A DNA stretch of 58,956 bases from a virus, in IMG/VR virus record IMGVR_UViG_3300019863_000024, positions 1 through 58,956 of that record; one strand, written 5' to 3'. Positions within the stretch are counted from its first letter, which is position 1; each line of letters begins with the position of its first letter. Position numbers and translations under genes: made by a program. Shown piece after piece: positions 3,101-57,940 of this stretch. Below the pieces are notes generated by a model that saw nothing but the letters and a program-made list of their open reading frames with translations, was not told where the DNA came from and did no database searches.

Positions 3101-3106
3101 AATATA

Positions 3107-5428: not shown

Positions 5429-5599
5429 CAAGCTCTTGACAAAATAAATATATACGATATAATAAATAATGTGAACGCCAGTGAACTAAACCCATATACT
5501 AGCCTCTATGGCGACTGAATAGAATACCCACTCCACACAACAATAATAGATAAGAGAGAAAGAAGAATGTATTAAGGTAGTTAAGGGTAGAATGGTTTG

Positions 5600-5674: not shown

Positions 5675-5695
5675 ATTGTACTTAAAGGAGAAACC

Positions 5696-6592: not shown

Positions 6593-6594
6593 AT

Positions 6595-22249: not shown

Positions 22250-22264
22250 TATGAACTACTACCA

Positions 22265-22313
22265 AGAGTAACTATTTAATATATATATATATATATCATA
22301 TAGTAGTTACTCT
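22265..22313 (+). terminator. Hairpin between the tail and lysis genes
   Basis: AGAGTAACTA (22265-22274) and TAGTTACTCT (22304-22313) form a perfect 10-bp stem; the 29-base loop is mostly alternating AT. It is followed by ATTTAATT, only a weak T-rich end. Probably a terminator or mRNA-processing hairpin; a -10-like TATGAT follows near 22327. Confidence 0.55.
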
Positions 22314-22362
22314 ATTTAATTCAAAGTATGATAAACTTACTTAAATGTCTAAAGGAGGCAAT

Positions 22363-29488: not shown

Positions 29489-29519
29489 AACCTAGACATT
29501 AAGTTGTTTAGGTTATACT
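29489..29519 (+). promoter_or_regulatory. Cassette 1 hairpin-promoter (loop TTAAGT)
   Basis: AACCTAGACA-TTAAGT-TGTTTAGGTT forms a 10-bp stem (one G-U) with loop TTAAGT, 28 bases after the capsid stop; TATACT (29514-29519) overlaps the last stem base. It fits the recurring TTAAGTT-N8-TATA(A/C)T layout exactly. Probably a terminator for the capsid operon joined to a promoter for the regulator gene. Confidence 0.7.
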
Positions 29520-29657
29520 GATTTATATATCTTTTATGGTTATTACTCTACTTAACTCTATAGTAACCCTAAAAGGTATTAATTTGATATGAGTTGCTTG
29601 GTAATCAATTTCATATAACCTTTAAAACTTATTATTATTACCGAAAGGGTATTCATT
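29520..29657 (+). ncRNA. Structured leader of cassette 1
   Basis: About 138 bases between promoter and start codon. It contains a GGTTA(T)TACT ... AGTAACC stem and an AAAGGT ... ACCTTT pair enclosing ATATGA ... TCATAT, and ends TTATTATTATTACCGAAAGGG before the ATG. Part of it (GTATTAATTTG...GGTAATC) is shared with the leader at 30367-30519, and its 3' end with 30534-30675. Candidate 5' leader RNA; function unknown. Confidence 0.5.
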
Positions 29658-30326
29658 ATGAATGAACTACAATTATATGGGTTTAAAGCTGAGACTCTAG
29701 CTGATACTAAAGTTACATTTGCATTACAACAAGGTTTATGGCTAAATGCTACTGAAGTTGCTAAGAGTTATGGTAAAGACTTACAGGGATATTGGAGACT
29801 ACAAGATACTATTGATTATATAGATGTTGTTGCAGAATCTAATTCAGTTCTCACGACTGAATTAAAAATAGCTGTAAAAGGTAAGTATGGTGGTACATAT
29901 ATTCATCCAGATTTAGTAATTAGTTTTGCTAGATGGGTAAATCCTAAGTTTGCTTACGAATGTGATAAGTTCATTAAAGATGAAATCATAAGAGTAAATA
30001 CTATTAAAACTGAAGCATTACTTGAACAAGCTGAGAAAGATAAACAACAAGCTGTGATGGAAGCTAAGAGATGTAAAATCTATGACGATGGTTCAATGAG
30101 TGTTAGAGGTATTATTCAACATTTAGGGTTAGATGTAACAGAAGACTTTGTTTGGGATGCTTTAACCTATGCAGGGTTTAATGAGGATATTACCAAAGTA
30201 ACAAAATATAGACGTATCCCAGATAATACACCATCTTATATTGGTACACCTAGAGGTACTCAAAGTCCTACTTTTTTCCCACAAGTAGTTAAACAAGTAG
30301 TATTAGACTATATGGATGTAGTATAA
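29658..30326 (+). CDS. KilA-N domain protein, cassette 1
   Basis: 222 residues. A KilA-N domain (about 15-120) shows LQQGLWLNATEVAKSYGKD, then YWRLQDT, and GGTYIHPDLVISFARWVNPKFA, the core of phage and DNA-virus KilA-N DNA-binding proteins. The second half (residues 115-222) starts with a Lys/Gln helix and has RCKIYDDGSMSVRGIIQ and PSYIGTPRGTQSP, a C-terminal domain seen again in the 243-residue protein at 49513-50244 (KLYSDGKASVR, GHIGNTKGVLP). It begins MNELQL; four regulator genes here begin MNEL. It has its own hairpin-promoter and leader inserted between capsid and internal virion genes. Probable DNA-binding regulator; target unknown. Confidence 0.75.
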   Translation: MNELQLYGFKAETLADTKVTFALQQGLWLNATEVAKSYGKDLQGYWRLQDTIDYIDVVAESNSVLTTELKIAVKGKYGGTYIHPDLVISFARWVNPKFAYECDKFIKDEIIRVNTIKTEALLEQAEKDKQQAVMEAKRCKIYDDGSMSVRGIIQHLGLDVTEDFVWDALTYAGFNEDITKVTKYRRIPDNTPSYIGTPRGTQSPTFFPQVVKQVVLDYMDVV

Positions 30327-30335
30327 ATTAATTCT

Positions 30336-30366
30336 TACCCTATTATTAAGTTTAATAGGGTATACT
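30336..30366 (+). promoter_or_regulatory. Cassette hairpin-promoter (loop TTAAGTT)
   Basis: TACCCTATTA-TTAAGTT-TAATAGGGTA is a perfect 10-bp hairpin 10 bases after the stop at 30326; TATACT (30361-30366) overlaps its last two bases. TTAAGTT is exactly 8 bases before TATACT. Confidence 0.75.
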
Positions 30367-30519
30367 TTAAAAGATACTTTAGAGGTTACCAAGCCAATTC
30401 AGTTATCATCTATTACACTCGTAGTTGATGGTAACCTCTAAAGTATTAATTTGTGATAAGCATAATGGTAATCTTCCACTCAAGAGACAATCTTCTATTT
30501 TTGAATCTATACTTAAATT
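30367..30519 (+). ncRNA. Orphan leader with an 18-bp inverted repeat
   Basis: ATACTTTAGAGGTTACCA (30374-30391) pairs perfectly with TGGTAACCTCTAAAGTAT (30429-30446) around a 37-base loop. The following bases (GTATTAATTTG...GGTAATC) match the cassette 1 leader. No gene starts where one would be expected; instead the next promoter (30513-30533) begins. This looks like a leader whose gene has been lost, or an independent small RNA. Confidence 0.5.
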
Positions 30520-30533
30520 ATGTATGGTATACT
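30513..30533 (+). promoter_or_regulatory. Cassette 2 promoter
   Basis: TTAAATT, 8 bases (ATGTATGG), TATACT (30528-30533): one mismatch from the cassette consensus, without a flanking hairpin. It lies 148 bases before the ATG at 30676. Confidence 0.6.
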
Positions 30534-30675
30534 TATGTCTTAATGGTTTTAATGGTGGTCTTATAATCTCTTTATCACTTGGTAAAGGTCTCCATTAAGG
30601 TTGTTAGTTACACAATTAGTACTGAGACTACTAAACCATAAACCTTAAACTTATTGTCTCGAAAGAATATTTAGC
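30534..30675 (+). ncRNA. Structured leader of cassette 2
   Basis: Two nested stems: CTTAATGG (30539-30546) with CCATTAAG (30592-30599), and GAGACAAT (30484-30491, upstream of this promoter) with ATTGTCTC (30653-30660). It is clearly homologous to the minus-strand leader at 50632-50781: shared blocks are TCTTAATGG, TTTATCACTTG, CCATTAAGGTT, GAGAC...CTACTAAACC and TTATTGTCT-GAAAG, in the same order from promoter to start codon. Confidence 0.65.
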
Positions 30676-31347
30676 ATGAGTAGACTACAACTACAAAGCC
30701 TTAAATCAATTACTTTGCATGAGTTACAAGTGTCACTACAACAAGGCTTATGGTTAAATGCAACCCATATTGCTAAAGACTATGGTAAAGACTTATCTAA
30801 CTATTGGAGAAGTTCAGGTACAGAACAATACTGTAAAGCATTAATAAACTCTAATTATGAAGATTTCACTGATATCAAACAGATTGTTGTAGGTAGAGGT
30901 AAAACACAAGGAACTTTTATACATCAAGATTTAGTAATTAACTTTCTATTATGGATTGGTATAAAATATAAAGATATCATTAGTATACCATCTATTAGTG
31001 AGAGTATGCGACAAAAGAACATAGAGATTGGTGGTTCAATAGAGGTAAAGAATACTAAAAAGATTTCAAATGTTTTATACTTAATAACTGATGGTATATA
31101 CACAAAGATAGGTATAGCTACTAAGAATGCTACTAGAAGACTTAAACAATGTCAGACTGGTAATCCTAAGAAATTATGGATTGAGTTTGAAGTCTTTATT
31201 ACAAATGCAAGAGAGATAGAAGCTAAACTTCATAAAGAGTACTCTGATAAAAGACTTATGGGAGAGTGGTTTAAGTTAGATAAGAGTGATATTGAAGACA
31301 TTAAGTTTAAGACATTATATCCTTTCCATAAAGACTCTATCAGCTGA
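30676..31347 (+). CDS. KilA-N protein with T5orf172/GIY-YIG-like C-terminus
   Basis: 223 residues. KilA-N-type domain at about 10-110 (LQQGLWLNATHIAKDYGKDL, YWRSSGTEQY, GTFIHQDLVINFLLWIG), then a T5orf172/MUG113-type domain (about 130-215: VLYLITDGIYTKIGIATKNA, RRLKQCQTGNPKKLWIEFEV, REIEAKLHKEYSDKR). That domain belongs to the GIY-YIG nuclease fold; its conserved Arg, Glu and His are present (R in RRL, E and H in EAKLHKEY). The combination KilA-N plus T5orf172 is common in phage regulatory or anti-repressor-like proteins. GAAAG precedes the ATG. Whether the nuclease domain is active is unknown. Confidence 0.75.
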   Translation: MSRLQLQSLKSITLHELQVSLQQGLWLNATHIAKDYGKDLSNYWRSSGTEQYCKALINSNYEDFTDIKQIVVGRGKTQGTFIHQDLVINFLLWIGIKYKDIISIPSISESMRQKNIEIGGSIEVKNTKKISNVLYLITDGIYTKIGIATKNATRRLKQCQTGNPKKLWIEFEVFITNAREIEAKLHKEYSDKRLMGEWFKLDKSDIEDIKFKTLYPFHKDSIS

Positions 31348-31363
31348 AGATACTTTTACCCAC

Positions 31364-31391
31364 GTATTTATTAAGTTAAGTATGCTATAAT
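31364..31391 (+). promoter_or_regulatory. Cassette 3 hairpin-promoter (loop TTAAGT)
   Basis: GTATTTA-TTAAGT-TAAGTAT (stem with two G-U pairs) followed by GC-TATAAT (31386-31391), 17 bases after the previous stop. TTAAGTT is exactly 8 bases before TATAAT. Confidence 0.7.
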
Positions 31392-31536
31392 TATATACAA
31401 ACAATTTCATTATATTCACTAGAAGTTTTCTTGACGGTCTTTCTGCTAGTGGATATACTGAAGTTGTTAAGTGAAAGACCGTCAATCTCTCACTCGATCC
31501 AAGAATCGACTTACATTTTGACATATAGGATTCATT
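31392..31536 (+). ncRNA. Structured leader of cassette 3 with exclusive stems
   Basis: TTGACGGTCTTTC (31431-31443) pairs perfectly with GAAAGACCGTCAA (31473-31485). An alternative stem pairs ATATTCACTAG, just upstream, with CTAGTGGATAT (31445-31455), which lies in the loop of the first. The two stems cannot both form, as in attenuators and riboswitches. A small TCGAT/ATCGA hairpin follows near 31494-31509. Confidence 0.55.
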
Positions 31537-32139
31537 ATGAATGAATTAATTAAAGTATTTGATGATGCAGTGTTACCTATAGAGGTAATTAATGAAAAAG
31601 AGTTTATGGTAAACGTTAGTGGTATTGCTAATAAGTATGGTAAACGATTTAAGGATTGGAAAGATTCTGCTAGAGTTTCAGAATTACTTAAGATAAGAGA
31701 AAATTCGCATAACTTAAAGCAAACTGAACTTATACTTATTAGTGGTAATACACAAAAAGTACATAATAGTATGTTGGTATCTTTCGCAAGATTTATATCA
31801 CCAGAGTTTGAGGTATGGTGTGATGATACTATCTATGAGATTCTCACTGAGTCTAAAGATAAGGAGATTAAGAGACTCAAAGAAGAACGTAAGTTATGTA
31901 TGGTAGATGCTAATGGTTACTCATCTATCAGAGGTATTGCACAACGTAGTGACTATACCGAGTCTCAGATACAAAGGTTCTTTGTTAAGCTTGGAGCTAT
32001 TGAGGACTCTATTAGACCAACAAAGTATTGGTATATGAAAGATGATAATAATGGTCTATTAATGAGTAGAGGAGAGTTTCAAACTCCTTATATAAAGCTA
32101 GATAAAGCTATTAGACTACTAGACCAATACTATAAATAG
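31537..32139 (+). CDS. KilA-N-like regulator, cassette 3
   Basis: 200 residues. N-terminal KilA-N-like region: VNVSGIANKYGKRFKDWKDS, then ISGNTQKVHNSMLVSFARFISPEFEVWCDDTI, equivalent to NATEVAKSYGK...W and HPDLVISFARWVNPKF of cassette 1. The C-terminal half (about 115-200) has KLCMVDANGYSSIRGIAQRS, parallel to the KIYDDGSMSVRGI segment of cassette 1, and a final helix. It begins MNELIK. AGGA is close to the ATG. Probable DNA-binding regulator; the His before DLVI is changed (HNSMLVSF), so its DNA target may differ. Confidence 0.65.
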   Translation: MNELIKVFDDAVLPIEVINEKEFMVNVSGIANKYGKRFKDWKDSARVSELLKIRENSHNLKQTELILISGNTQKVHNSMLVSFARFISPEFEVWCDDTIYEILTESKDKEIKRLKEERKLCMVDANGYSSIRGIAQRSDYTESQIQRFFVKLGAIEDSIRPTKYWYMKDDNNGLLMSRGEFQTPYIKLDKAIRLLDQYYK

Positions 32140-32147
32140 ACTATTCA

Positions 32148-32176
32148 CATACTTATTAAGTTAAGTATGTTATACT
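32148..32176 (+). promoter_or_regulatory. Cassette 4 hairpin-promoter (loop TTAAGT)
   Basis: CATACTTA-TTAAGT-TAAGTATG, a perfect 8-bp stem 9 bases after the stop at 32139, then T-TATACT (32171-32176). TTAAGTT is exactly 8 bases before TATACT. It restarts transcription into the virion genes at 32317. Confidence 0.75.
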
Positions 32177-32316
32177 AATACTACCTACATTACAATTAAA
32201 ACCTGGTGTGTAGGGAAATCTACCAATTTACTTACTTTACCTTACTTTCCTATTAAACCACTAATTAAGACTTCATACAGTATAATGAGTTCAAACTAAC
32301 AATAAAGGATAGACCT
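32177..32316 (+). ncRNA. Leader upstream of the 201-residue virion gene
   Basis: Leader of about 140 bases with a small GTAG-GGAAAT-CTAC hairpin and a pyrimidine-rich middle. A second promoter-like box inside it (TTAAGAC, 9 bases, TATAAT at 32281-32286) lies close to the gene. The promoter-to-ATG distance (146) matches the regulator cassettes although the gene is not KilA-N. Confidence 0.4.
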
Positions 32317-32922
32317 ATGGAAATAAAATTTGAGGATATTAGTGTTGAATACATTAACTCATTAGATAAGCAAAAAGAGTTACAAGATATCTTACTATCA
32401 GCGTTTAATAAGACAAGTGTCCCATTTGCTAAGAACCCTAAGAACCCTAAAACTGATGATTTAAAAGCTTATATGATTGGACTCTATGTAGCAAAGATTG
32501 AATCTATCGAAGAAGCTAAACGAGCTAAAGAACTAGCTGAACTAAGTAAAACTTCTGAGGGTAAAGCTAAGAGTAGACGAGAGAGACTTCAAGAAGCTAC
32601 TAAATTAGTTCCTGTAATTATTTCTGATTCAAACCCTAATCAAACTTTAGATGATTCATCAGGTATTGCTGAGTTTAAGACTTATGGTAATGATGAGATA
32701 GGTTTACATACTAGATTAGTAGTATTTGATGTACCATGGTTACTCCCTAATGCATTACTTGATAGCATGAGACAAGCTACTTATTCGAAGTTTGTTCAAA
32801 GAGGTAATAGTGTTATGCAAATTGCTCCTACACCAAGATATAGTATTCAAGAACTCCCTATGTTAACTCCAGAAGATATAGAAAAAATGAAGAAGATTAA
32901 AGCTACAATGGAAAACTATTAA
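32317..32922 (+). CDS. Virion protein, N4 gp55-like position
   Basis: 201 residues, not recognised. N-terminal helices (ISVEYINSLDKQKELQDILL), a Lys/Glu-rich middle helix (EEAKRAKELAELSKTSEGKAKSRRERL) and a C-terminal beta/alpha part (IGLHTRLVVFDVPWLLPNAL). It is the first of a run of virion genes between the capsid gene and the virion RNA polymerase gene, where N4 keeps its internal and minor head proteins. AAAGGA precedes the ATG. Confidence 0.5.
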   Translation: MEIKFEDISVEYINSLDKQKELQDILLSAFNKTSVPFAKNPKNPKTDDLKAYMIGLYVAKIESIEEAKRAKELAELSKTSEGKAKSRRERLQEATKLVPVIISDSNPNQTLDDSSGIAEFKTYGNDEIGLHTRLVVFDVPWLLPNALLDSMRQATYSKFVQRGNSVMQIAPTPRYSIQELPMLTPEDIEKMKKIKATMENY

Positions 32923-32938
32923 TAGTAAAGGATAACTC

Positions 32939-34540: not shown

Positions 34541-34553
34541 AGGTTACTCATTT

Positions 34554-37151: not shown

Positions 37152-37178
37152 TAAATAATTACTCACAAAGGATAACTC

Positions 37179-37739
37179 ATGAGTTCAGAATCATACTTTA
37201 GACCTACAACATTCAATGGTGTCGCAACTGGAGTTCAACAACCAGCATCAGACATTAGTTCATCAGCATTTAATGGAGATACCTCTTTTGGTCAATACAA
37301 GTCTCCATCATTCTTACAAAGTAATAATAATTATAACAATAGTGGTAGTAGTAATAGTAGTGGTATAGACACTCTAGGAGCTATAAACTCAGGAGCATCT
37401 ATACTTAGAACTCTAGGTGGTTTATGGTCTGCTCATGAACAGAATAAGATGGCTAAGCAAGAGTTTAACTTTAATAAAGATGTATTTAACAAACAATGGA
37501 CTGCATATCAGGAAGACAGACAAAGGAAACATGATTTTGAGGATAGTGTAGGAGACCAATATGATAGAGTTAATCATACAGGTAAGTATGCAAAAGACAC
37601 TACTAAAACTCCAGTAACTACACAACAAGCTCAAAGTAAAGAAAGAGGTACAGCTTCACCAGTTACTTCTTTAAACAATCAAAAGACTAAAGAGGTACAA
37701 TATACTAGACCTAAAAATCAAAATGTTTTAAAAGGATAA
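37179..37739 (+). CDS. Small internal virion protein
   Basis: 186 residues. The N-terminus is Ser/Asn-rich and disordered (SNNNYNNSGSSNSSGIDTLG), the middle helix (AHEQNKMAKQEFNFNKDVFNKQWTAY) is of the kind found at the start of podovirus minor virion proteins, and the C-terminus is Lys/Gln-rich. It precedes two proteins of the internal core and is spaced by AAAGGATAACTC before the ATG, the same spacer used by neighbouring genes at 32939 and 37743. Confidence 0.5.
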   Translation: MSSESYFRPTTFNGVATGVQQPASDISSSAFNGDTSFGQYKSPSFLQSNNNYNNSGSSNSSGIDTLGAINSGASILRTLGGLWSAHEQNKMAKQEFNFNKDVFNKQWTAYQEDRQRKHDFEDSVGDQYDRVNHTGKYAKDTTKTPVTTQQAQSKERGTASPVTSLNNQKTKEVQYTRPKNQNVLKG

Positions 37740-37742
37740 GTC

Positions 37743-39767: not shown

Positions 39768-39781
39768 AAAGGGTCTTCAAT

Positions 39782-42700
39782 ATGCCTATATACAGTGATA
39801 AGACATACAATGAGAACATACAAAATCAAGTAGATAGTTTTCAAAATGATGCTATAGATAGAGAACAAACTGTTCAGGATCAAGCTGACATCGGTGAAGA
39901 GGTTAGTGATAGACTAAACTATGAAGCTGGACGTGATTATGAAATAGCTCAAGATAATAATAAAATTAAGTTTACTGAACCTCAAAAAGATACAGGTAAG
40001 GTTGCTGAGTATTGGAATAAATCTCTTGATTTCTTAGGAGCTCCAGAATCATTAAGAGCTAATGAGGTTCATAATGGTAAAGCTTATGATGCAAGAAATA
40101 AAAGACCAACTATCTATGCTGATTATAGTAAAGATGATTTAATTAATGAAGTTAATAATGTCAAAGAAGATCCTAATGCTAAACATGTCTTATACAATAT
40201 AAAGTATTATGTAGGTAAAGATAAGTATGGTGACAGTAAGTATGCTTACAAGACAGGTGTTGATTCAGTATCTGCATTCAATAGATATAAAGAACAATTA
40301 GGTAATAACGTTAAGATAGTATTTGAAAAAAGATTTGCAGGTGCTGAGGATGCTGAGAATCGCTTTCACCAGCTAGAAGCAGAGCAAGGTACACAATTAG
40401 CTTCTGACAAACAAGAAGCCTTTAAACAGGGTATAGGATCATTTGGTTCAGGATACACAGAGTTTACTAATGAAGATTACTTTAATGGTGAAGATAAGAA
40501 CTATAAAGACTTTAATAGTGCTTTCAATAAATCTGAACAAGAATACAGTGAGGATATGAAGTATAGAGCAACTCATAACTCAAATAATACTACATGGGAT
40601 AAGTTAAAAGGTGGAGACTATACAGATGCTTTTGAGTCAGGAGCTATGGAGCTTGTTGGTGGAATTGGTGATGCTATAGCTACTGGAGTTGGTTTTGGTT
40701 TGAACGAGTTAGGATTAAGAAATAACTTAGCCAACACTAACTGGTTTAACAAACTAAAGAATAATGCTGATAAGTATTCAGGATACGATAGAAGAAGCTC
40801 AACACAAGCTATGGTTGAATCTACTAACTTATGGAATAAAGGGTATTATGTTCAAGCTCTATGGAATAATAAAGCTGATTTATCTGATTCAATTGTAGAG
40901 TCTATTCCTGAGATGCTAACAATGACAGTAGGGTTACCAGAATTAGGTGCTATAAAGCTAGTAAAGGGGTTAAATGAAGCTAATAAGGCTTTAAGGGTAG
41001 CACAAGAAGCTGGAGACATAGAAAAGGTCTCAGAGCTAAGCAATAAAGTAAGAGTATTATCAACTTCATTCAAAGATTTAGGTGAAGAGGGAATTAAAGC
41101 TGCAGACACTATAAATAACCTTTCTTTAGGTAATAAGATTACTAACATTATGAAAAGAGAAGCTGGATTTGAAGCAGTAGTATCCAAGAACACTAATAAT
41201 GTAATTGAAGAACGTATACATAATGGTGATAATGATATTACAACTGGAGAGTTTGCTGGAATCTTAGCTTCTCAATTCCTATCTACAGCTACTGATAGAT
41301 TTGCATTCAAAGAGATAGTTGGTGATAATAAAGTCTTAGGAGCTTTAAAAGATGTATTCAAAACCTCATCAGAGGAAGTTAAAAAGAATATTATCCATAA
41401 GGTAGCATCAACAGCTATAGGTTTAGGTGTTTCAGGAGTGGAAGAGGGAACTCAAGAATATCTTCAAACTTGGAGTGAGATTGCTGGAGCTCAACTAGGA
41501 GTTAAAGGTAAAACAATAGATGATGTCTTATCAGATAAGAGTAATCAAGACCAAGCTTTAGGATCAGCTATAGCTGGAGCTGTTGGTGGTGTAACTATGC
41601 ATAGCATTGCTCATGGCTCAAAAGCAGTATTAAAAGGTGCAAAGGCTGGAACAAAGAAAGGTGTTAATGTAGCTAATGATTTACTAAAACGAAATAATAT
41701 TCATTTAGAAACATCTGAGGAAGAAGCTTCACAAATCAAGACAATAGATGACTTTAACAATAAAGATTTATCACCTGAAAGTAAGATGATGTCTGTTGGG
41801 TTACACTTAGACAAATCAAAATCTCATGTCATTACTGGTATGGACTCTAAAGGTATAACTCCTCTAGTTTCTGATATTCTAAAATCTGTTAAACATGATA
41901 CTAAAAAGACAGACTTATTTAAAGAGTATCTAACACAAAAGTTAGCAGATAATGTCTATAACACTAATACTACAGATAAGAAAGATTTACTTATAGCTAG
42001 AGATTTAGGTCTTGATATAGATAACTCTATGTACAACAAAGCTTTAGAAACTGCAAGAAATGTTGTTAATAATGTAGTATCTGAGAAAAGAGAAGAACAG
42101 TTAAATAAGGCTGTTAATTCTCAAGGGTCTGAAACAATAGGTGATGCTTTAGAAATCTCTCCAGATGAAGGATTCTTTGAAGATTATAGAGTTAATAAAA
42201 GTAGTCCATCTTTAACTAAAACACCTGATGGAAAGAAAGAAAATCCTTTCTACGGTAAGTTTGATAGTCAAATAATATCTCTAAATAGACAGATAGAAGC
42301 TATGGAATCTTCTAAATTAGACACTAAGAAGACTAGAGAATATAGAGACTCCTTAATTAAAAAGAATACTGCTAAGTATACACCACTTAAATCATTAGAG
42401 GAAGTTGTAGAAGATATTGAAAACCTAGGATTTAGAGATGAGAATGGTGTAATAGATCCTGATAAACAATCATTAAACTATTATGATAAATCATTACCAT
42501 TAAGTGTATCTTCTTTTGGTTATGATGAGAATATCTTATTAAATAAGTTTGTAGGGTTTGCTAAGTCTCGGATCAATAAAGCTGATTATATTGAAAAAGA
42601 TAATTTAGCATCTAAGGTTATTGAAGAGAACTCATCTTTATTGGATATAGCAGTTAAAACATTGTCAACTATTAAGAGAGATGAAAACTTAACTTCAAAA

Positions 42701-45700
42701 CAAAAAGAAGAAAGTGTCTCTAAAGTTACTGAGGCTATTGACAATGTTCATGTCTCAAATAGAGCTTTATTGGATAGAGCATTAAATAGACATAGTGAAC
42801 CTTTAGACTCAAAAGAGAGTAATCCTGAGTTAGATGGTTCTTATGTTGTTAGTGATGGTGTAGTAAAGCAATTAATCTTAAAAGACTTAACAGATGCTAA
42901 ATCATACCAAGATATAGAGGTTGTTAAGAATAAGATTAAAGGAACTTATGGAACTCTACCAGTGTACTTTAATGATAAAGATGGAAGTGATATCTTACTT
43001 GCTATAGAAGATAAGAAAGATAAGTTATTTAAAGAACATGTACGATCTAAACCTAACAATAAAAAAGTTAATGTTAATAATACAAATAATAATGATAACT
43101 CTAATGATAGTGATACTAACCCTACTTCTATTACTAATGATGCTATGTCTATTGGTGATAGTGAAAGTCTTAATAATAGTGATGATACTACTTCTACAAG
43201 TAATGATAACAACACTAATGTTAGTACTGACTATGGAAAGATTAACTTTATTAGTTCAATGAGAAACTTTTTGATTAAGAGTAAACCAACAAATACTATT
43301 ACATCAGAATTATTTGAAGCATCTATCAAAGGTTTGTTAACTATTAAAGATCCACAAACTAGAGAGAGTATATCAAGTAAGTTATCTACATACAATCTTA
43401 ATGATAATCAAATTAGTGCTGTCTATGATGCATTAACATACAATAAGAAAGATTATAATGATAATATACCTACTCAAGGAGTTAAACAAAATAATTCTAT
43501 AGAAGAGTTTAAAAGGTTAACATCCTTAAAAGAATCAATAAATAAGTTAATTAACAACATTAAGGTATCTAACAATAGACTAGAGTCCAAAGCGTTAAAA
43601 GAAGCCTTAAGTGAAGCAGAGTCAGAGTTAAATACCCTATCTAAAGTAATTGTTGATATGGAAAACAACCTTAATACTCAAAAGAAGCATTTAACTAATG
43701 ATAATACTATTACTAAAGAAAATCCTGAAATGAACTCTATCAGAACCTTATATCTAAAGGGTCTAAGAATTGTTGAATCTTTATATAATAAGTTACTTAC
43801 TGTTAAAGCTTCTAAAAAAGAGTTAAATTATACATTCTCATATTTACAAAAGATAGTTAAACAGATAGATAGAAGTTCTAAAGTTAATAAGTTATCTATA
43901 GATAAGGCTACTAAAAATTTACAGATACTTGAAAGAACTATTCAAAAACGATTAGATAACTTGAGTATACCTACTATTGCATACAAGTCAGAGATAGCAG
44001 AAGTGGCTAAGCTAGAAAAACATACTAACCCTAAAGTAGTTAAATTTGCTAAAAATGTTAAACGTAAGCTACTCAGTAAAGATGATGATCATGTTGGTAA
44101 AATTAAACTTGTTAAAAAGTTAAGAGAATACTCTAAATCTATTAATGCTAAGTCTGATCAAGTTGGTACTAAAGAAGATATTGAAACTTCTACTAAATCT
44201 AAAGTTGAGAATACTACTAAATCGTCTGAAAATGCCCGTGAAGAGCAATCTAACACTATAGGCAATGGATTGGTTAAACCTACTAATAAAACTGTTATTT
44301 CAGATACTCTAAACAAGACTGATACTAATACCTCAGATAATAATCTTACAAATGAAAACACTACAGAATCTTCAGAAGACGAAGTAATACTTCAATCATG
44401 GGATACTAAAGCTACACACTCCTTACTAGATCAATTCAAAGTTAATTTTAATGAGTTAAAAGTGTTACTTAGTAAAGATAGGAATGATGCAAACAATACC
44501 AGCATTAATAAAACATTAGAATCTATGAAGAAGAATACACTGGATAGATTAGACACTTTAGAGTTTGATTTAAAGAATAATGAAAGAAGAACTCATGATA
44601 AGATAGTAGATGCTCAAGATAGGAAATCAAAGACAATCTCATCACTTGAGAAACAGATTTTTAGTTTATACAAATCATTAAATCATCATGCAAAACGTAA
44701 AGATACTCCTAAGTTCTATACTACTTATAAAAATATCCTAAAGAAAGAGATACTATTACAAAGTTTAACATTTAAAGAATCTCCATCAAAGCTTAATGGA
44801 TATAAGAATGTTGCTAAAGCTTATGCTAAATCTATAGACGATGAATTAGAGTTAAATACATTAGAGGTCAATCATAATAATAAGGTTAAGATATTAGCTT
44901 CTAAACTAAAATCAACATTAAAACTAGGAAGACTACTTGTTAATAAATACTTTAACCAAAAGAAGAGAATCCTAGAAAAGATTAAGACTGAAACAGAAAC
45001 ATTAGATACTTTAAATGAGACTATATCAACATTCAATGATCAAAATAAGATTAGTGATGAAGCTATGGATTACCTTGAATCTAAGTTTCTATCTACTAAA
45101 GTTAAAGATTCTACTGATGTTCGTATATTCTCTAATGGTGAGAAGATAGTTAACTGGTTTAGTAAATATAACCCAAGTCTATTACAAATATTTGAAGTCT
45201 CTAATAGCCCTATCTCTAAGATATCTAGTATATTAACTTCTAACAAACCTATATCTAAGATAGAAGAAGAATATTTACATGAGAATCTATCTGAGAGTAG
45301 TTCTGACAAATTAACTACTATAGACTTAGACAACATTAAATCTCTCAATAAGGTAGTTAATGGGTTCGTAGGTTCATTACAAGGGTCTACAGAGGTAGAT
45401 AATGGTAGTTTCTTCTCAACAAATGGGGTTGTATTCAACATAGCTAACATGTTTAGAAGAGTAAAAGGTGCAAAGACTATCTCAACTCAAGGTGATGTGA
45501 ATAGAGCTACAAAGTTAGTTAATGGTCTTACTTACTCAGCTATACAAGAAGTTAAATTTAATATCTTAAAGATGGATAATTCAGATATCTCAAAAAACTT
45601 TAATATCCTTGGTGACTCTAACATTACAACATTTAGAAGAGATATTATAAATAATCATATTCCTCTTGCATCAGTACGTGAAGACCTTGCTAATGAATTA

Positions 45701-48700
45701 AAAACCCTTATAGGTATCAAAGTAAGAAAAGACTCTGATGAGAAGAATAATAGACTATATGATGCTACTATGAAGACTATAATAGAGTCTGTCTTACAAG
45801 AGAGTCCTATGTTTTCTTTAGAGACTAAAAAGTATAGTGCAAATCAATCATATAAGCTTATAACACTTAACAATGACTTCCTAGATAGTAACTTTTCAGA
45901 AGAAGATATCTCAGGTATTAAGAATGCATTCTCTAAATTATCATATATAACTGGAACTAAAAAGAAAGCTCATCCAAGCTATAAACCTCATAAGATTCCT
46001 GATAAGATTCGTAATGGTGTAGTTAAACTTTTAAAACAAGATATAGAAAAGCTTACTAAACTAAACAATACTCCTTATGTTTATTCAGATAGATTTGAGA
46101 GTGTTGCTAAGGTGTACGAGAATGACAAAGAGTTAGCTTATAGTATGTTTGGTAAGGTTAGTGAAGAAAAGCTCTCAGAATTGAACCTCGAAGACTATAC
46201 GACTACTCAATCAGTTAATGAACAAATAGAAAGAGACTTAGATAATCTATATAAGTATTATGGTGAGTTTAAGGGTAAAGAATTTTATTTACCTTATGGT
46301 GTAACTAAGTCTAACAGAACACAAATATTCTCTGATATCACACCTATGGATAGTAAGATTCATAGAGAGTTTGTAATTAAGAAACCATTTATTAAAGATA
46401 TATCTCCTCATATAGGTAACTATAGAGATCCTATTGATATGCATGGGGATTCTTTTAGTGATGAAGAGTTATTTGAGATAGCTTTATCAGAATCTTTTGA
46501 TTTAGATCCAGATAAGAAAGGTAGATTCCAATTATTCTCTGATTTAAGGGATATTGTAGATATTTACCCTACAGATGGTGTTAAGATAAAAGGTAAGAAG
46601 TTTCAATTTATTAAAGACTTTATAGAAAACCCTATAGAAGACTTATCTATACTTGATACAGGAGATTGGTCTAAGAATATGCAATCTCATAAACAGTTTC
46701 ATGCTATCCTTGAGTTAAGAAATATTCATCAAAGTAAAGTGAATGGATATCAAACAGTTAAACATGATCTTACAATTGAAGCAGATGCTATAACCTCAGG
46801 TACAGGAATCTTAACATTACAATCAGGTTTAAGTCCTCAGAATGAAGAGTTAATGGAGAAAGCTGGTATCTTAAATAATGAACAATTAACTAAAAGAACA
46901 GCATATACTAAGAAGTTATTAGCTCATAAACATAATGTCTCAGAAGATGATATTGACATGACTATGCCATCACTAATTGAAGCTGGAGATTATCACTATA
47001 AGATAATGAATGACAACTCTTTTGATGCTCATACACTTGGTATTGATGACAATGAGCTCTATTTAGATATCTATAAAACTATGGGTTCTGATGTTATGCA
47101 TGAGGGTTTTGATGGTGACTCTATGGATGGTGAAGATACTGATGTTAAAGTTAGAGCATTCAATATGGCAAAGTCTACCTTAGAGGCTTTAGCTTTAGAG
47201 AAAGGTCTATCTTGGTTTAGAAAGATATCTAAGCCTCCAGTAATGACCTTTAACTATGGTTCAGCTATATCATCTATCAAAGAAGACTTAAGAGAGAATA
47301 CTTTTGATAAGATGTTCTTAAGTAGCCTAAGAGGTGATAATAAATTTGCTAACCTTGTTATTATCTCTGCTCATAATAAGACTAAGAAAGTAAACAGACA
47401 AGGGTGGAGTAAGCATCAAAATATAGCTTATAATAAAAAAGTTATATCAGACTATTGGCTTGCTCTAAATAAGAACTTTTATATTCCAGATGAGTTTATA
47501 GAAGACTTAAATACTAATGATAGAAAAGAGTTGAGTAAATATGCTCAAATAACTGATAAAGGTATTATTAACATTCTTCAAGAACAATCAGATATATTAC
47601 TAGGTGATAAGTTTGAAAAGTCTTTTAATAATAGAATGAAAACTATAACAGAGTATAGAGAAGCTTTACAACATATGGATGTAGTTCATGCTGAAACCTT
47701 TAAGTTCTTATTTGAACATTCAGTAGATGAATTAAGAAAAAATAAGAAAATTGAAGTAACAAGTAAAGATAGATTAGACTTTGCTGAAAGAGCTAAGGTT
47801 GAAAATTTAGAAGACCTAGAGAAAGAGTATGAAGTTAAAGCTAATATTAATGCTAATAGATTAACTATTCAAGATATATCAAATGTCTTAGATACTCTTA
47901 ATGCTGATGGTCTAGGCTACACCTTATCATTGTTTAATAGACTTCAAGAGTTCTATAAATCTGCAGATGATAAACAAGTCTTAACAGAACGTTCATATTT
48001 CAAAGGTAATAATCAGAAAGATGGTATAAGTTATGAAGCTCAGGTAGAAGAATTTATTGCAAACTTTAGAGCCTATACTACAACTTCTATCCATAATATT
48101 GATGATGAACAAATGAGAAGAGCTTTACTTGATAATGATTTTTCATCTATTTATGATGCTATCATATTTCCTAGTGAACAAAAGGTAATTAATAAGACTA
48201 CTGATACATATAACCAAGAGATGATTTATACCAATAGAGATAATAGTATTATGACATCTACAGTAGCTAAGTTGAACACCATGATAACTAAGATTAAAGA
48301 ATTAGGATTAGAACAAGAGTTCTATGATAGATTCAATATGTTTGATGCTAAGAATGCTCCTGAGGTATACTCAGAGACTACTATAGTAGCAAATGGACTA
48401 GACCCTATGAGAGGTATCTACAATGGTAAGACAGCTAACAATAGAAAGATTCAGACATTACCAGATGTTAAAGGAACTAGAAAAGTAGGTACATACACTA
48501 TTAAACTTTCAAATAGTAAAAATTCATTCTCTGTCAGTGAAAACATCAAAGGTAAGAATGATAGTAATATAGAAACTACAAGGTATCAATATACAAAGTC
48601 AGATAATGGAGATTCTTTATACGATTTGAAGATAATAGCTACAGGTTATAATTTCAAGACTAGAGAGTTTAATTTTAAGAGGGATAGACTTGTAGGTGAG

Positions 48701-49480
48701 GTAACTGACTTACCAATAAATCCTGAATCTCTAAATGGATATGGAAATGTTTTAAATCTAAACAATGAGATTATCAGAGATTTAACCAATAATAAAACTC
48801 CTTTAAAAAATCTACATACTGAAAAACGTAATGAAACAGCATTATCAAGTGAAATGATTCTAAATGAAAACTCTCTTCATGATGCATTAAGACAAATAAA
48901 GTTTGTAGGTGATGGTGTAGACTTTCAAGTTAAATCTACTATAGATACTATAAATAAAGTTAACAATGGTAGAGATAAGTTATCTAAGAAGTCTCTCAAC
49001 GTTAACCATATGGCTGTACTAGGAACTCAATTTAAAGGAGTAAATGCATCTGACTCTAAAGATATCAATAAAGATGTAGATGTTAATGTTGTTAGAGATA
49101 TACTTACTAAATCACAAAATAATTATATAAAAGGTATAGTTGACTTCTTATCAGCTAAATATCCTGATATAGAATTATTCAAAGATATAAGTATGATAAA
49201 GGATGGTCTTGTTGATATAACACCTCTGATAAATGATGGTGAGTATATGCGATTAGCGACATTATTTAATGAAGTTACTGGATTGGAAGAGTATCAGAAT
49301 ACGATATTTAACCCTAATTTAGCATTTAAGTATACTACTAAGGTTATTGATAGAAAAGCTCATATAGTCGAAAATAAGGCTAACAATGATGTATCTTCTA
49401 AACCTATAAAACCTATTATAGAAAATAAGTCTATGAAGATTATTGAAGACTATCTAAATGATCCAGATAGAGGATGTTAG
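39782..49480 (+). CDS. Virion-associated RNA polymerase (N4 vRNAP-like)
   Basis: 3232 residues, close to N4 gp50 (about 3500). Ejected with the DNA, it would transcribe early genes. Polymerase motifs lie in the C-terminal third: FKGKEFYLPYG (G2165-K2166, the place of TxxGR, here ExxGK); motif A EADAITSGTG (D2335); motif B with exact spacing R2480-x3-K2484-x7-Y2492-G2493 (KPPVMTFNYGS); motif C SIYDAIIFP (D2792). The A-to-C distance of 457 is in the range of N4's 392. The N-terminal 600 residues include Gly/Ala-rich hydrophobic stretches (SGAMELVGGIGDAIATGVG; GSAIAGAVGG) that could insert in the membrane, and an EEGTQEYLQ motif common in ejected phage proteins. The middle is coiled coil. Residues 135-205 look GIY-YIG-like. 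Confidence 0.85.
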   Translation: MPIYSDKTYNENIQNQVDSFQNDAIDREQTVQDQADIGEEVSDRLNYEAGRDYEIAQDNNKIKFTEPQKDTGKVAEYWNKSLDFLGAPESLRANEVHNGKAYDARNKRPTIYADYSKDDLINEVNNVKEDPNAKHVLYNIKYYVGKDKYGDSKYAYKTGVDSVSAFNRYKEQLGNNVKIVFEKRFAGAEDAENRFHQLEAEQGTQLASDKQEAFKQGIGSFGSGYTEFTNEDYFNGEDKNYKDFNSAFNKSEQEYSEDMKYRATHNSNNTTWDKLKGGDYTDAFESGAMELVGGIGDAIATGVGFGLNELGLRNNLANTNWFNKLKNNADKYSGYDRRSSTQAMVESTNLWNKGYYVQALWNNKADLSDSIVESIPEMLTMTVGLPELGAIKLVKGLNEANKALRVAQEAGDIEKVSELSNKVRVLSTSFKDLGEEGIKAADTINNLSLGNKITNIMKREAGFEAVVSKNTNNVIEERIHNGDNDITTGEFAGILASQFLSTATDRFAFKEIVGDNKVLGALKDVFKTSSEEVKKNIIHKVASTAIGLGVSGVEEGTQEYLQTWSEIAGAQLGVKGKTIDDVLSDKSNQDQALGSAIAGAVGGVTMHSIAHGSKAVLKGAKAGTKKGVNVANDLLKRNNIHLETSEEEASQIKTIDDFNNKDLSPESKMMSVGLHLDKSKSHVITGMDSKGITPLVSDILKSVKHDTKKTDLFKEYLTQKLADNVYNTNTTDKKDLLIARDLGLDIDNSMYNKALETARNVVNNVVSEKREEQLNKAVNSQGSETIGDALEISPDEGFFEDYRVNKSSPSLTKTPDGKKENPFYGKFDSQIISLNRQIEAMESSKLDTKKTREYRDSLIKKNTAKYTPLKSLEEVVEDIENLGFRDENGVIDPDKQSLNYYDKSLPLSVSSFGYDENILLNKFVGFAKSRINKADYIEKDNLASKVIEENSSLLDIAVKTLSTIKRDENLTSKQKEESVSKVTEAIDNVHVSNRALLDRALNRHSEPLDSKESNPELDGSYVVSDGVVKQLILKDLTDAKSYQDIEVVKNKIKGTYGTLPVYFNDKDGSDILLAIEDKKDKLFKEHVRSKPNNKKVNVNNTNNNDNSNDSDTNPTSITNDAMSIGDSESLNNSDDTTSTSNDNNTNVSTDYGKINFISSMRNFLIKSKPTNTITSELFEASIKGLLTIKDPQTRESISSKLSTYNLNDNQISAVYDALTYNKKDYNDNIPTQGVKQNNSIEEFKRLTSLKESINKLINNIKVSNNRLESKALKEALSEAESELNTLSKVIVDMENNLNTQKKHLTNDNTITKENPEMNSIRTLYLKGLRIVESLYNKLLTVKASKKELNYTFSYLQKIVKQIDRSSKVNKLSIDKATKNLQILERTIQKRLDNLSIPTIAYKSEIAEVAKLEKHTNPKVVKFAKNVKRKLLSKDDDHVGKIKLVKKLREYSKSINAKSDQVGTKEDIETSTKSKVENTTKSSENAREEQSNTIGNGLVKPTNKTVISDTLNKTDTNTSDNNLTNENTTESSEDEVILQSWDTKATHSLLDQFKVNFNELKVLLSKDRNDANNTSINKTLESMKKNTLDRLDTLEFDLKNNERRTHDKIVDAQDRKSKTISSLEKQIFSLYKSLNHHAKRKDTPKFYTTYKNILKKEILLQSLTFKESPSKLNGYKNVAKAYAKSIDDELELNTLEVNHNNKVKILASKLKSTLKLGRLLVNKYFNQKKRILEKIKTETETLDTLNETISTFNDQNKISDEAMDYLESKFLSTKVKDSTDVRIFSNGEKIVNWFSKYNPSLLQIFEVSNSPISKISSILTSNKPISKIEEEYLHENLSESSSDKLTTIDLDNIKSLNKVVNGFVGSLQGSTEVDNGSFFSTNGVVFNIANMFRRVKGAKTISTQGDVNRATKLVNGLTYSAIQEVKFNILKMDNSDISKNFNILGDSNITTFRRDIINNHIPLASVREDLANELKTLIGIKVRKDSDEKNNRLYDATMKTIIESVLQESPMFSLETKKYSANQSYKLITLNNDFLDSNFSEEDISGIKNAFSKLSYITGTKKKAHPSYKPHKIPDKIRNGVVKLLKQDIEKLTKLNNTPYVYSDRFESVAKVYENDKELAYSMFGKVSEEKLSELNLEDYTTTQSVNEQIERDLDNLYKYYGEFKGKEFYLPYGVTKSNRTQIFSDITPMDSKIHREFVIKKPFIKDISPHIGNYRDPIDMHGDSFSDEELFEIALSESFDLDPDKKGRFQLFSDLRDIVDIYPTDGVKIKGKKFQFIKDFIENPIEDLSILDTGDWSKNMQSHKQFHAILELRNIHQSKVNGYQTVKHDLTIEADAITSGTGILTLQSGLSPQNEELMEKAGILNNEQLTKRTAYTKKLLAHKHNVSEDDIDMTMPSLIEAGDYHYKIMNDNSFDAHTLGIDDNELYLDIYKTMGSDVMHEGFDGDSMDGEDTDVKVRAFNMAKSTLEALALEKGLSWFRKISKPPVMTFNYGSAISSIKEDLRENTFDKMFLSSLRGDNKFANLVIISAHNKTKKVNRQGWSKHQNIAYNKKVISDYWLALNKNFYIPDEFIEDLNTNDRKELSKYAQITDKGIINILQEQSDILLGDKFEKSFNNRMKTITEYREALQHMDVVHAETFKFLFEHSVDELRKNKKIEVTSKDRLDFAERAKVENLEDLEKEYEVKANINANRLTIQDISNVLDTLNADGLGYTLSLFNRLQEFYKSADDKQVLTERSYFKGNNQKDGISYEAQVEEFIANFRAYTTTSIHNIDDEQMRRALLDNDFSSIYDAIIFPSEQKVINKTTDTYNQEMIYTNRDNSIMTSTVAKLNTMITKIKELGLEQEFYDRFNMFDAKNAPEVYSETTIVANGLDPMRGIYNGKTANNRKIQTLPDVKGTRKVGTYTIKLSNSKNSFSVSENIKGKNDSNIETTRYQYTKSDNGDSLYDLKIIATGYNFKTREFNFKRDRLVGEVTDLPINPESLNGYGNVLNLNNEIIRDLTNNKTPLKNLHTEKRNETALSSEMILNENSLHDALRQIKFVGDGVDFQVKSTIDTINKVNNGRDKLSKKSLNVNHMAVLGTQFKGVNASDSKDINKDVDVNVVRDILTKSQNNYIKGIVDFLSAKYPDIELFKDISMIKDGLVDITPLINDGEYMRLATLFNEVTGLEEYQNTIFNPNLAFKYTTKVIDRKAHIVENKANNDVSSKPIKPIIENKSMKIIEDYLNDPDRGC

Positions 49481-49512
49481 TCCTCTTCTGATTGATACTG
49501 CATAAAGTAGAT

Positions 49513-50244
49513 TTATTTAGCTTGTTCTATCTTCTCTTTGTAGTATTCAGATATTTGGTTAAACTCCTCTACTAAACGTTCATATTCACTCTTAACAGGA
49601 CTTCCTGACTCTATCCACTCAGATACTACTTTACGAACTGTTAATGGGTTAAATGTAGGCAGTACACCTTTAGTGTTTCCTATATGTCCCTCTAGGTCTG
49701 GATTAATTGTTCTTATAGTAGTAGCTTTAGCTTTAGTTACTACAAACCCTTTCCATACCAATGCATTCCAAATATCATGTTCAGTAGGAGCTTCCTCATC
49801 TTCTGTCCAAGCTTCTATACTACATCTTCTAACAGAAGCTTTGCCATCAGAGTATAATTTAGGTTTTTTAGCTTCTAATACAGCTAAAGTCTTTTCTTGT
49901 TGTAGTTTCTCAAATGCAAAGTTAATAATATCTGCTCTTAAGTCTGCATCAAATTTAGCAATAAACCATACCATTGTTTTTAAATTCATCCCGTATGTCT
50001 TTAATTTCTCAATTTTACCTTTACCTGTTTGGACATCCACCATAGATACCCAAAAATCCATAGTGTCAAATCTATCGGCAGATAGTTCAGAAACTTGTAT
50101 TTCAAAACTTTTAACAATTTTGCTATGTTGAAGTTTTGTTTTATTTTTTGTTAAATAATTATCAGCTACATCCTTTAATGTCATAGTCATGTTAGTGTTA
50201 GCTAAAAATTGCTCAGTAGGGTTAAGTGTAATAAGTTCATTCAT
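49513..50244 (-). CDS. KilA-N/Rha-like regulator, minus strand
   Basis: 243 residues from the ATG at 50244, which has AAGGAG 8 bases upstream; an upstream frame extension lacks one. Starts MNELITLNPTEQF and resembles Rha/KilA-type regulators in MTLKDVADNYL...HSKIVKSFE and the MNLKTMVWFIAKFDADLRADIINFAFEKL region. The second half (KPKLYSDGKASVR, ALVWKGFVVTKAKATT, GHIGNTKGVLPTFNP) matches the C-terminal domain of the KilA-N protein at 29658-30326 (KIYDDGSMSVR, ALTYAGF, SYIGTPRGTQSPTFFP). So genes of the same group sit on both strands, in two loci 20 kb apart. Confidence 0.6.
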   Translation of the reverse strand: MNELITLNPTEQFLANTNMTMTLKDVADNYLTKNKTKLQHSKIVKSFEIQVSELSADRFDTMDFWVSMVDVQTGKGKIEKLKTYGMNLKTMVWFIAKFDADLRADIINFAFEKLQQEKTLAVLEAKKPKLYSDGKASVRRCSIEAWTEDEEAPTEHDIWNALVWKGFVVTKAKATTIRTINPDLEGHIGNTKGVLPTFNPLTVRKVVSEWIESGSPVKSEYERLVEEFNQISEYYKEKIEQAK

Positions 50245-50337
50245 GATGAAACTCCTTATAAGATTAAGAAGTTTTACAGAGTGCTTCAAGTAGTCACTCC
50301 AAGGTTTACATCTCCATTCAATGTAAATCCATATAGT

Positions 50338-50358
50338 ATTATATCCTATCTAACTTAA
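50338..50358 (-). promoter_or_regulatory. Minus-strand cassette promoter
   Basis: On the minus strand: TTAAGTT, 8 bases (AGATAGGA), TATAAT. Exact match to the cassette consensus, but on the opposite strand and without a clean TTAAGT-loop hairpin. It precedes the regulator starting at 50244 by 99 bases; a TTTACAT/ATGTAAA stem and a GAGTG/CACTC stem lie between. Confidence 0.65.
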
Positions 50359-50445
50359 AAGGTATGACAGTTGTTTATTCACCGAAAGGATAACCAAGTA
50401 ATTCATTCAACATAGCATTATCTTTAATCTTTCTAATCATTAATT

Positions 50446-50631
50446 CTAGTCTAATAAATCACTTAAGCTAAAATTGGCTTCAGTGAAAAGATGTTCTTTT
50501 TCTCTGATTCTAACAAGAACTTTTCCATGTTCTTTACCAAATACTTTAGCAATTGTTAAACTATCTGTAAATACAGAATCCTCTTGTTGTTTAAACACTA
50601 CTGTAGTGTCATTAATAATTAATTCATTCAT
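50446..50631 (-). CDS. Truncated Rha-family protein
   Basis: 61 residues from ATG 50631 (a TTG further upstream is less likely). It matches the start of Rha-type phage regulators: DSVFTDSLTIAKVFGKEHGKVLVRIRE is the Rha pattern D-S-L-x-I-A-x-x-F-G-K-E-H-x-x-V-L-x-x-I-R. Full Rha proteins go on for at least 40-60 more residues (tyrosine-rich and Gly-Phe part); here the frame stops after ANFSLSDLLD. It may be a decayed gene or a short single-domain form. It has the leader shared with cassette 2. Confidence 0.55.
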   Translation of the reverse strand: MNELIINDTTVVFKQQEDSVFTDSLTIAKVFGKEHGKVLVRIREKEHLFTEANFSLSDLLD

Positions 50632-50781
50632 GATTAATACTTTCAAGACAATAAATTTTAGGTTTAGTAGTAGAGGGTCTCAATCACTACTACTTAAATT
50701 AATAACCTTAATGGAAAGCCTATCAAGTGATAAACTCTCTCATGGAATAGTTTGAGACCCTCCATTAAGATTACTTCTGTT
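50632..50781 (-). ncRNA. Structured leader homologous to cassette 2
   Basis: GAGGGTCTCAA (50673-50683) pairs with TTGAGACCCTC (50752-50762), and CTTAATGGA (50707-50715) with TCCATTAAG (50761-50769); the right arms overlap by two bases. Block by block it matches the leader at 30534-30675 and keeps the same distance from promoter to ATG (about 150). Confidence 0.65.
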
Positions 50782-50792
50782 AGTATAACCTA
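50782..50792 (-). promoter_or_regulatory. Promoter of the truncated Rha gene
   Basis: TAGGTTATACT on the minus strand (-10 TATACT at 50787-50782). It overlaps the stop codon of the frameshifted Rha-like gene at 50790-51057. The TTAAGTT element is not conserved. Confidence 0.5.
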
Positions 50793-51057
50793 TTTGTTTG
50801 ATTTTCCATTTGAAGCTTTATAATTACTTAAGCTCAATTTTGAGCTGTACTCAGAATCTTCCAATAACCCACTAATGACTATATTAAACTCAAATTCTGG
50901 TAATAGATAGTGTTTTGCATTTCTATTTTGTTCAGTTAAATAGGATAGGGTAAATTTCCCCCTCTTCTAATTCAAGCTCTTTAAATGTATTTCTACATGT
51001 TTTTAATACTTCAGAGTGTTCTTTACCAGTAACCTCAGCAATTCTAAGACTGCTCAT
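50790..51057 (-). pseudogene. Frameshifted Rha-like gene
   Basis: From the ATG at 51057 the frame gives SSLRIAEVTGKEHSEVLKTC (Rha-like) and stops at an in-frame TGA after 41 codons. Removing one G from the GGGGG tract near 50960 restores a continuous frame of about 88 residues ending KASNGKSNK, with the Rha-type second half (EQNRNAKHYLLPEFEFNIVI). The interval is 268 bases, one more than a multiple of 3. So this is a gene broken by a single G insertion, a programmed frameshift site, or a sequencing error. Confidence 0.6.
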
Positions 51058-57514: not shown

Positions 57515-57940
57515 AATTTTCCTTTAATTTTAATATATTAATGTAATATACATAGTACTTGCTTAACCTAATATTAATGTAGTAAGTAGTAGTAGAGGGG
57601 TCTCTTTTTTTATGAAAGTAATATATATATAATTATATATATATGTATATTAGTATGTATGGTAGGTGTAATATACATATATTCATATATACACCATTGC
57701 ATGAGACAGTATTCTACCCCCCCCCCTATAATGACATTTATACATATATACACATTCTTCCAATAAACTATTAATTAATTTATTATCTATCATATAGCTC
57801 TAATTTAGTTTAATGAATACAATTACTCAGGTACATAGGAGTTTAACGATTGTAGGCTAACCTCGACCTGAGAATGAGGTATTATGAATAATGGTAAAAT
57901 AAAAATAACCTAACTCCCAAATATCTCTTCTATCAATAAC
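57515..57940. other. Gene-free region with homopolymer and AT runs
   Basis: No gene seen. It has a tract of ten C at 57717-57726, striking in DNA this AT-rich, an alternating AT run near 57626-57650, and an inverted repeat GGTGTAATATA...TATATACACC (57665-57695). The stems and runs could be terminators or phase-variable or slippage sites. Confidence 0.4.

Follow-up and report, generated by a model that had tools for sequence, protein, structure and literature searches.

We analysed a complete virus record from IMG/VR (IMGVR_UViG_3300019863_000024, a 59-kb contig of 58,956 bases, hereafter the window) that carries two clusters of KilA-N and Rha-type regulator genes, one on the plus strand after the major capsid protein gene and one on the minus strand near the virion RNA polymerase gene. 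The genes are preceded by predicted promoters and by 5' leaders. As judged from predicted folds, the leaders belong to an undescribed family of structured RNA, and several leaders of the window are members. We consider it probable that promoter, structured leader and KilA-N/Rha/antirepressor-type gene form mobile cassettes that are exchanged among distant N4-like phages and are headed by this RNA family.

From 5' to 3', the strands of a leader are a5' and b5', then in most cases a hairpin c, and lastly a3' and b3' with a link between them. Pairing of a5' with a3' and of b5' with b3' predicts an H-type pseudoknot, which usually encloses a hairpin with an ACUY tetraloop. We curated 16 full copies in five phage contigs, with a helix a of 9-24 bp, a helix b of 9-20 bp and very few mismatches. 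In 13 of the 16, helix a starts 3-8 nt past the -10 box, which is the expected transcription start. The pseudoknot and the start codon are 41-69 nt apart. A reading of the window made earlier from its sequence alone (the sequence-only reading) proposed leaders of nearly constant length, and length is indeed constrained rather than free (about 136-167 nt from the end of the -10 box to the start codon in 14 units). The family members in the window are as follows (units are named by the position of the start codon).

29526-29657, plus strand: leader L1, a divergent family member; helix a ATATCTTTTATGG.../...AAAAGGTAT, helix b weak; matched by a held-out covariance model
30371-30501, plus strand: gene-less leader unit, preceded by a hairpin promoter of its own and located a short way 5' of the 30676 unit; matched by the covariance model
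30537-30675, plus strand: leader L2; helix a 30537-30546/30592-30601, helix b 30553-30563/30623-30633, hairpin c 30570-30587 with an ACUU loop
31400-31536, plus strand: leader L3; helix a, 31400-31422/31446-31468, pairs at 22 of its 23 positions, and helix b, 31431-31443/31473-31485, is 13 bp long
50632-50775, minus strand: leader M1; helix a 50762-50775/50701-50714, helix b 50752-50761/50674-50683, hairpin c with an ACUU loop near 50716-50737

The gene-less unit contains an 18-bp perfect inverted repeat (30374-30391/30429-30446) with an apical ACUC, and its b3' strand is decayed. Its TTAGAGGTTACCAAGCC hairpin recurs at the same junction in a related contig, G001.

The capsid, portal and giant virion RNA polymerase genes of the window match Schitoviridae profiles (phrog_1357, phrog_1216 and phrog_2206), and the closest annotated homologues of the capsid protein are from Schitoviridae, at about 31% identity. 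No DNA-level match to the window was found among 50,697 phage records. Thus, the window represents an N4-like phage that is far from any isolate. Relatives were recovered by protein and RNA searches (G001, IMGVR_UViG_3300044576_000027; G002, 3300028030_000019; G004, 3300028030_000011; G003 and G005) or by an RNA-only pattern (G006, 3300019762_000018, and G007, whose leader is a repeat of a G002 leader). No relatives of the queries were identified in genome_contigs.

Pseudoknot scores of the 30676, 31537 and 50631 leaders exceed those of all 100 dinucleotide shuffles (z -3.2, -12.9 and -5.6, respectively), and the 29658 leader beats 99 of 100. Fifteen of the 16 curated leaders were scored against 100 dinucleotide shuffles and beat every one; an RNA pattern independently recovered the sixteenth (G6a). 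With the apical loop set to ACUY, a descriptor gave 11 strong matches in seven contigs, and 12 shuffled sets gave no match. Of the 256 possible tetraloops, ACTT (7) and ACTC (4) take the top two places, with a mean of 0.14 for the rest. This comparison is unbiased, and thus guards against the loop having been chosen by eye.

Compensatory changes also support the pairing. Among three leaders of the L3 type (window 31400-31485 plus two from G001), 92% of cells pair and compensatory changes occur in 11 of 35 pairs, split between helices a and b, a result reached by 0 of 500 shuffles. Hairpin c is fully paired in six leaders from G002, G004 and G006, with double changes in six of its seven pairs. 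Helix b has no family-wide test of column covariation because MAFFT leaves the b strands of different leaders unaligned, and its support comes from the shuffles and the L3-type subset.

A held-out covariance model was built from the six G002, G004 and G006 leaders, with no window sequence. Its four best matches in the window are at 50646-50775 (E 8.5e-7), 30542-30659 (E 2.7e-5), 30371-30501 (E 0.0074) and 29526-29637 (E 0.079); the last of these, in L1, has an E value of 0.022 when calculated per genome rather than for the first search. The model had no match in six Schitoviridae isolates (N4, LIT1, DSS3P2, JA-1, XC38 and EK8). No Rfam 15 family, C4 included, matched the window or its relatives at the gathering score or at relaxed thresholds. 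A blastn search of two leaders against phage isolates gave nothing significant, and L3-type sequence patterns in viral_contigs returned G001 and chance matches only.

Several observations weigh against the reading of a single family of regulatory leaders on KilA-N/Rha cassettes. The helices of the 16 curated leaders were picked by hand; the shuffles, the 256-loop comparison and the held-out model are independent of that choice. All contigs are metagenomic and without known host, and five independent contigs are a small set. The sequence-only reading gave all six units that it listed the same KilA-N/Rha organization. Its KilA-N/Rha gene assignments stand, but the 32317 gene is a virion gene, and the structure is absent from two of the six leaders, those of 32317 (z -0.2) and 50244 (z 0.0). 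A third helix, d (outer a3' with a segment past b3'), covaries by eye and fails the shuffle test (p is not below 0.05 for any unit; Fisher 37.3, 32 degrees of freedom). Sequestration of the Shine-Dalgarno sequence was also rejected, as the nested folds have no consistent pattern, and the A+U fraction after b3' is 0.76, compared to 0.75 before other genes of the same contigs. Given no consistent sequestration of the ribosome-binding site, an unsupported helix d and ordinary A+U content, the data do not single out any particular regulatory mechanism. In G004 a leader also stands before a helicase gene, and in G006 before a replication operon. In G001 (L010, 14600-14800), a strong TTGACA-TATAAT promoter, a long hairpin and a full leader are followed by only an apparent ATPase/helicase gene remnant. 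Thus, the family is wider than the KilA-N/Rha genes.

The mobility of the cassettes is well supported by comparison of the contigs. Leader homologues were found in other phage contigs, as expected if the proposal of mobile units in the sequence-only reading is correct. Reciprocal-best core proteins of the window and G004 are 22-28% identical, versus 63% and 66% for two cassette proteins. Similarly, two cassette genes of G002 and G004 are 84-91% identical, compared to 31-61% for most other genes, and the 84%-identical pair is located at different places in the two contigs. The window 31537 gene is 66% identical to a G004 gene, whereas the nearest relatives of its leader are G001 leaders that belong to other genes (z 13.4 vs -1.0). 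The G2a and G4c genes are 91% identical, and the best match to the G2a leader is that of an unrelated gene, G4e. Over all pairs, leader similarity and protein similarity are uncorrelated (Spearman -0.08, p 0.37). Thus, leaders and genes are exchanged separately. The earlier suggestion of recombination in the leaders is borne out insofar as leaders recombine independently of genes. Spread within the genome was also suggested; mobility is upheld, but what can be seen of it is chiefly transfer from phage to phage and new pairings of leaders with genes, not recent duplication within the genome.

Truncated half-leaders in G001, G002 and G004 end past a3' and lack b3', with helix a kept at the 5' end, which places the junctions in the link. 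We considered an insertion that simply separates the leader halves, and rejected it because the missing b3' strands were found nowhere else in the same genomes. A likely recombination junction was identified in G001 (L004, 2960-3040), where a TTAGAGGTTACCAAGCC...GGTAACCTCTAA hairpin directly enters a coding region of the 243-aa type without its first codons.

The promoters and genes of the two clusters in the window are as follows.

29514-29519, plus strand: -10 box TATACT of the first unit, adjoining a hairpin with loop motif ATTAAGTT (29498 on)
29658-30326, plus strand: KilA-N regulator, 222 aa (KilA-N E 5e-18), 63-65% identical to G004 and G002 homologues
30361-30366, plus strand: -10 box TATACT, on the 3' flank of the hairpin CCCTATTA/TAATAGGG
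30528-30533, plus strand: -10 box TATACT of the 30676 unit
30676-31347, plus strand: KilA-N fused to a GIY-YIG-type (MUG113/T5orf172) domain, 223 aa, a candidate homing-type endonuclease
31386-31391, plus strand: -10 box TATAAT of the 31537 unit
31537-32139, plus strand: KilA-N regulator, 200 aa, 66% identical to the G004 protein that has another leader
32171-32922, plus strand: -10 box TATACT (32171-32176), a leader that lacks the pseudoknot, and the phrog_2130 virion gene (32317-32922); not itself a cassette but the right edge of the capsid-side cluster
49513-50244, minus strand: Rha/antirepressor-like protein, 243 aa, with the shared C-terminal domain; short 99-nt leader without pseudoknot
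50446-50631, minus strand: truncated Rha-type regulator, 61 aa (profile match)

The capsid-side cluster comprises, in order, a KilA-N gene, the gene-less promoter-leader unit, the gene for KilA-N with a GIY-YIG-type domain and a third KilA-N gene, followed by phrog_2130. The minus-strand cluster contains the truncated Rha gene and the gene for the 243-aa protein. The PF04383 (KilA-N) profile scores above its gathering threshold in the 29658, 30676 and 31537 genes. No Pfam match was found for the 49513-50244 protein; its homologues are Rha/antirepressor-like. The C-terminal domain reported to be common to the 222- and 243-residue proteins is confirmed (36% over 103 aa, E 8e-15). Fold models of the two (mean pLDDT 70 and 73) gave weak matches only, the best for the 222-aa KilA-N protein being the Mbp1 DNA-binding domain (weak, E 0.05). 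Counted from the first base of the -10 hexamer, the distances to the ATG in the sequence-only reading are exact: 144 (29658), 148 (30676), 151 (31537), 146 (32317), 156 (50631, minus strand) and 99 (50244, minus strand). The start MNEL, described there as usual, occurs in four of the six genes. A decayed cassette was also identified: a Rha-like frame (MSSLRIAEVTGKEHSEVL...) with an early stop extends on the minus strand from 51057 to about 50800 and resembles G004 22133-22348.

The surroundings of the promoters are phage-specific, with ATTAAGTT hairpins in the window, GGTTCT/AGAACC hairpins in G001 and GATTTATATGATATAAT in G002 and G004. This suggests that incoming leaders are joined to local promoters. 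From the promoters and terminators, the units are probably transcribed independently.

The two sites occupied by the clusters are flanked by the following virion genes.

28142-29461, plus strand: major capsid protein (profile match), whose 3' junction is an insertion hot spot
39782-49480, plus strand: virion RNA polymerase, N-terminal part (profile positions 98-1990 of 3406)
51107-57172, plus strand: Dda-like helicase region, then the C-terminal part of the virion RNA polymerase (profile positions 3103-3383)

The cassettes were thought to interrupt conserved blocks of virion genes, and the capsid junction is in fact empty in XC38 and EK8. It measures 63 bp and 88 bp in these isolates, respectively, compared to about 2.9 kb in the window; this is a comparison of gene order only, the exact borders being unresolvable at this divergence. 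In G001, a homologue of the 243-aa protein is directly 3' of the capsid gene, and leaders there resemble two leaders of the window. In G003, the capsid and phrog_2130 genes are separated by a homologous gene whose frame is broken. G004 has one cassette cluster after the capsid gene and another after the virion RNA polymerase gene. The minus-strand cluster of the window was placed beside the virion polymerase; it is located there, but more exactly between open reading frames (ORFs) that match the N-terminal and C-terminal parts of this protein. The virion RNA polymerases of G002 and G004 are single proteins of about 3,600 residues, to whose C-terminal parts the second window ORF aligns weakly. 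Thus, the polymerase gene of the window appears to be split in two, with the cassettes between.

Among the cassettes of the window, a GIY-YIG-type domain is present in the 30676 unit only. In G004 (50143-50916; L037, 11143-11916, minus strand), a gene for an HNH endonuclease with an I-HmuI-type NUMOD domain lies without a leader between the capsid gene and the KilA-N cassettes. The capsid match in G003 (L034, 6034-8036, minus strand) is in two pieces, and the roughly 860 bases between them encode a NUMOD4/HNH-like homing endonuclease frame. No Rfam intron was identified in this split gene at the gathering score.

Under the explanation that we favour, the cassettes would accumulate at hot spots 3' of the capsid gene and in the vicinity of the virion RNA polymerase gene, and each unit would be transcribed from its own promoter. 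The RNA may fold into helix a right at the predicted transcription start, and b5' would then pair with b3' downstream of a3'. The leader most likely acts in cis, as portable control in the 5' untranslated region of translation, mRNA stability or both. It may be recognized by its fold, perhaps by the ACUY loop, rather than by the sequence of its stems, and this would be why stems diverge freely and why leaders are found before unrelated genes. Recombination may move the cassettes, with exchange points at the promoter, in the interval from a3' to b3' or in a conserved stretch ahead of the ribosome-binding site, and the GIY-YIG and HNH endonucleases of the clusters possibly initiate it.

In G004 27742, G004 49076 and window 30371, b5' is complementary both to the strand beside a3' and to b3', so that a long hairpin and the pseudoknot would be alternative folds. 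A switch from hairpin to pseudoknot is conceivable in members with two such partners for b5'. More tentatively, the leaders could be a family of strand-exchange switches that are passed around as modules, read by a common phage factor, timing a regulator and replication regulon, and selected and spread independently of the genes they control.

The strongest rival is that the leader is a passive stabilizer, with no regulator, whose 5'-terminal stem protects the 5' end of the mRNA against decay of the RNase E type. Any fold that is stable at the 5' end would suffice, which would account for sequence drift and interchangeable leaders. The position of helix a at the predicted transcription start in 13 of the 16 leaders and its retention in truncated leaders that lack b3' fit this, and 5'-terminal stem-loops are described as mRNA stabilizers in work cited in PMC3997798. 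However, a simple hairpin would be enough, and the conserved pseudoknot, the ACUY loop and the conserved sequence past b3' are left unexplained; we regard this rival as possible but doubtful. Chance folding of AT-rich leaders, with the cassettes as ordinary KilA-N morons and no shared element, is very improbable. Stem sequences are mostly dissimilar and two of the six window leaders fold otherwise, yet the shuffle controls, compensatory changes and held-out covariance-model matches contradict it.

Alternatively, the leader may be processed to a trans-acting RNA that represses the downstream antirepressor-type gene, with variable b strands setting specificity. In P1, trans-acting c4 RNA represses Ant synthesis (PMC8546580). 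The layout in P1/P7 is the same, with a structured RNA between promoter and antirepressor-type gene, and the b sequences differ among units. However, no C4 covariance-model match was obtained, the conserved pairing is within the leader, and leaders also occur before the helicase gene and replication genes. N4-like phages are usually strictly lytic, which also counts against a c4-like role, and we consider it unlikely. Slightly less likely still is a DNA element (a cruciform or folded single strand) that serves cassette movement or promoter recognition by a phage polymerase, with transcription incidental. The elements are mobile, hairpins adjoin promoters in the window, and the N4 virion RNA polymerase uses DNA hairpin promoters. 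However, the fold begins downstream of the -10 box, at the predicted +1, its orientation to the gene is fixed, and G-U pairs are present and tolerated in the helices.

The comparison with known systems bears on what is exchanged. The N-terminal DNA-binding domains KilA-N, Bro-N and Rha reportedly recombine with varied C-terminal domains, T5orf172 included (Iyer, Koonin and Aravind, in 2002). Here, by contrast, the 5' leader RNA itself is the shuffled module, which was found in none of the literature searched. Free-standing phage homing endonuclease genes are complete units in themselves, located at gene junctions where relatives have no insert. The cassettes resemble them in this respect and in the GIY-YIG and HNH genes within the clusters, but most cassettes encode regulators without a nuclease domain. 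The closest working analogue is the T4 gene 32 operator. Its mRNA leader has a pseudoknot, then an A+U-rich stretch with UUAA up to the ribosome-binding site, and, according to a 2010 review, the gene 32 pseudoknot of the T4 type may still be the sole viral pseudoknot known in translational autoregulation (PMC3014915). Unlike that operator, the pseudoknot described here is larger, lies at the very 5' end, is present in many copies before unrelated regulator genes and moves between genes. The genes behind it encode KilA-N, Rha/antirepressor, helicase or unassigned proteins, and none encodes a single-strand binding protein.

Leaders that are swapped between genes and phages point to an undescribed portable gene-control element. 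If they control expression, they would be a portable phage regulatory part, and could explain how antirepressor-type genes are dropped into new genomes yet remain controlled. The exchange units of phage regulatory cassettes include RNA leaders besides protein domains, and phages other than the T4 type possess a family of pseudoknot leaders, present in multiple copies, that moves as a module in its own right.

Three non-coding regions of the window (5528-5694, 228-358 and 57639-57692), in the genome arms, contain big inverted repeats with high pseudoknot scores; they were not recognized as members of the leader family. The window also encodes a 199-aa HTH/RepL-like protein (57941-58540, minus strand) that is 60% identical to its counterpart in G004 (6041-6643), compared to 22-28% for core proteins. 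Repeats of the type TAACTG..AGTTA, which resemble operators or iterons, are located upstream of this gene in both phages.

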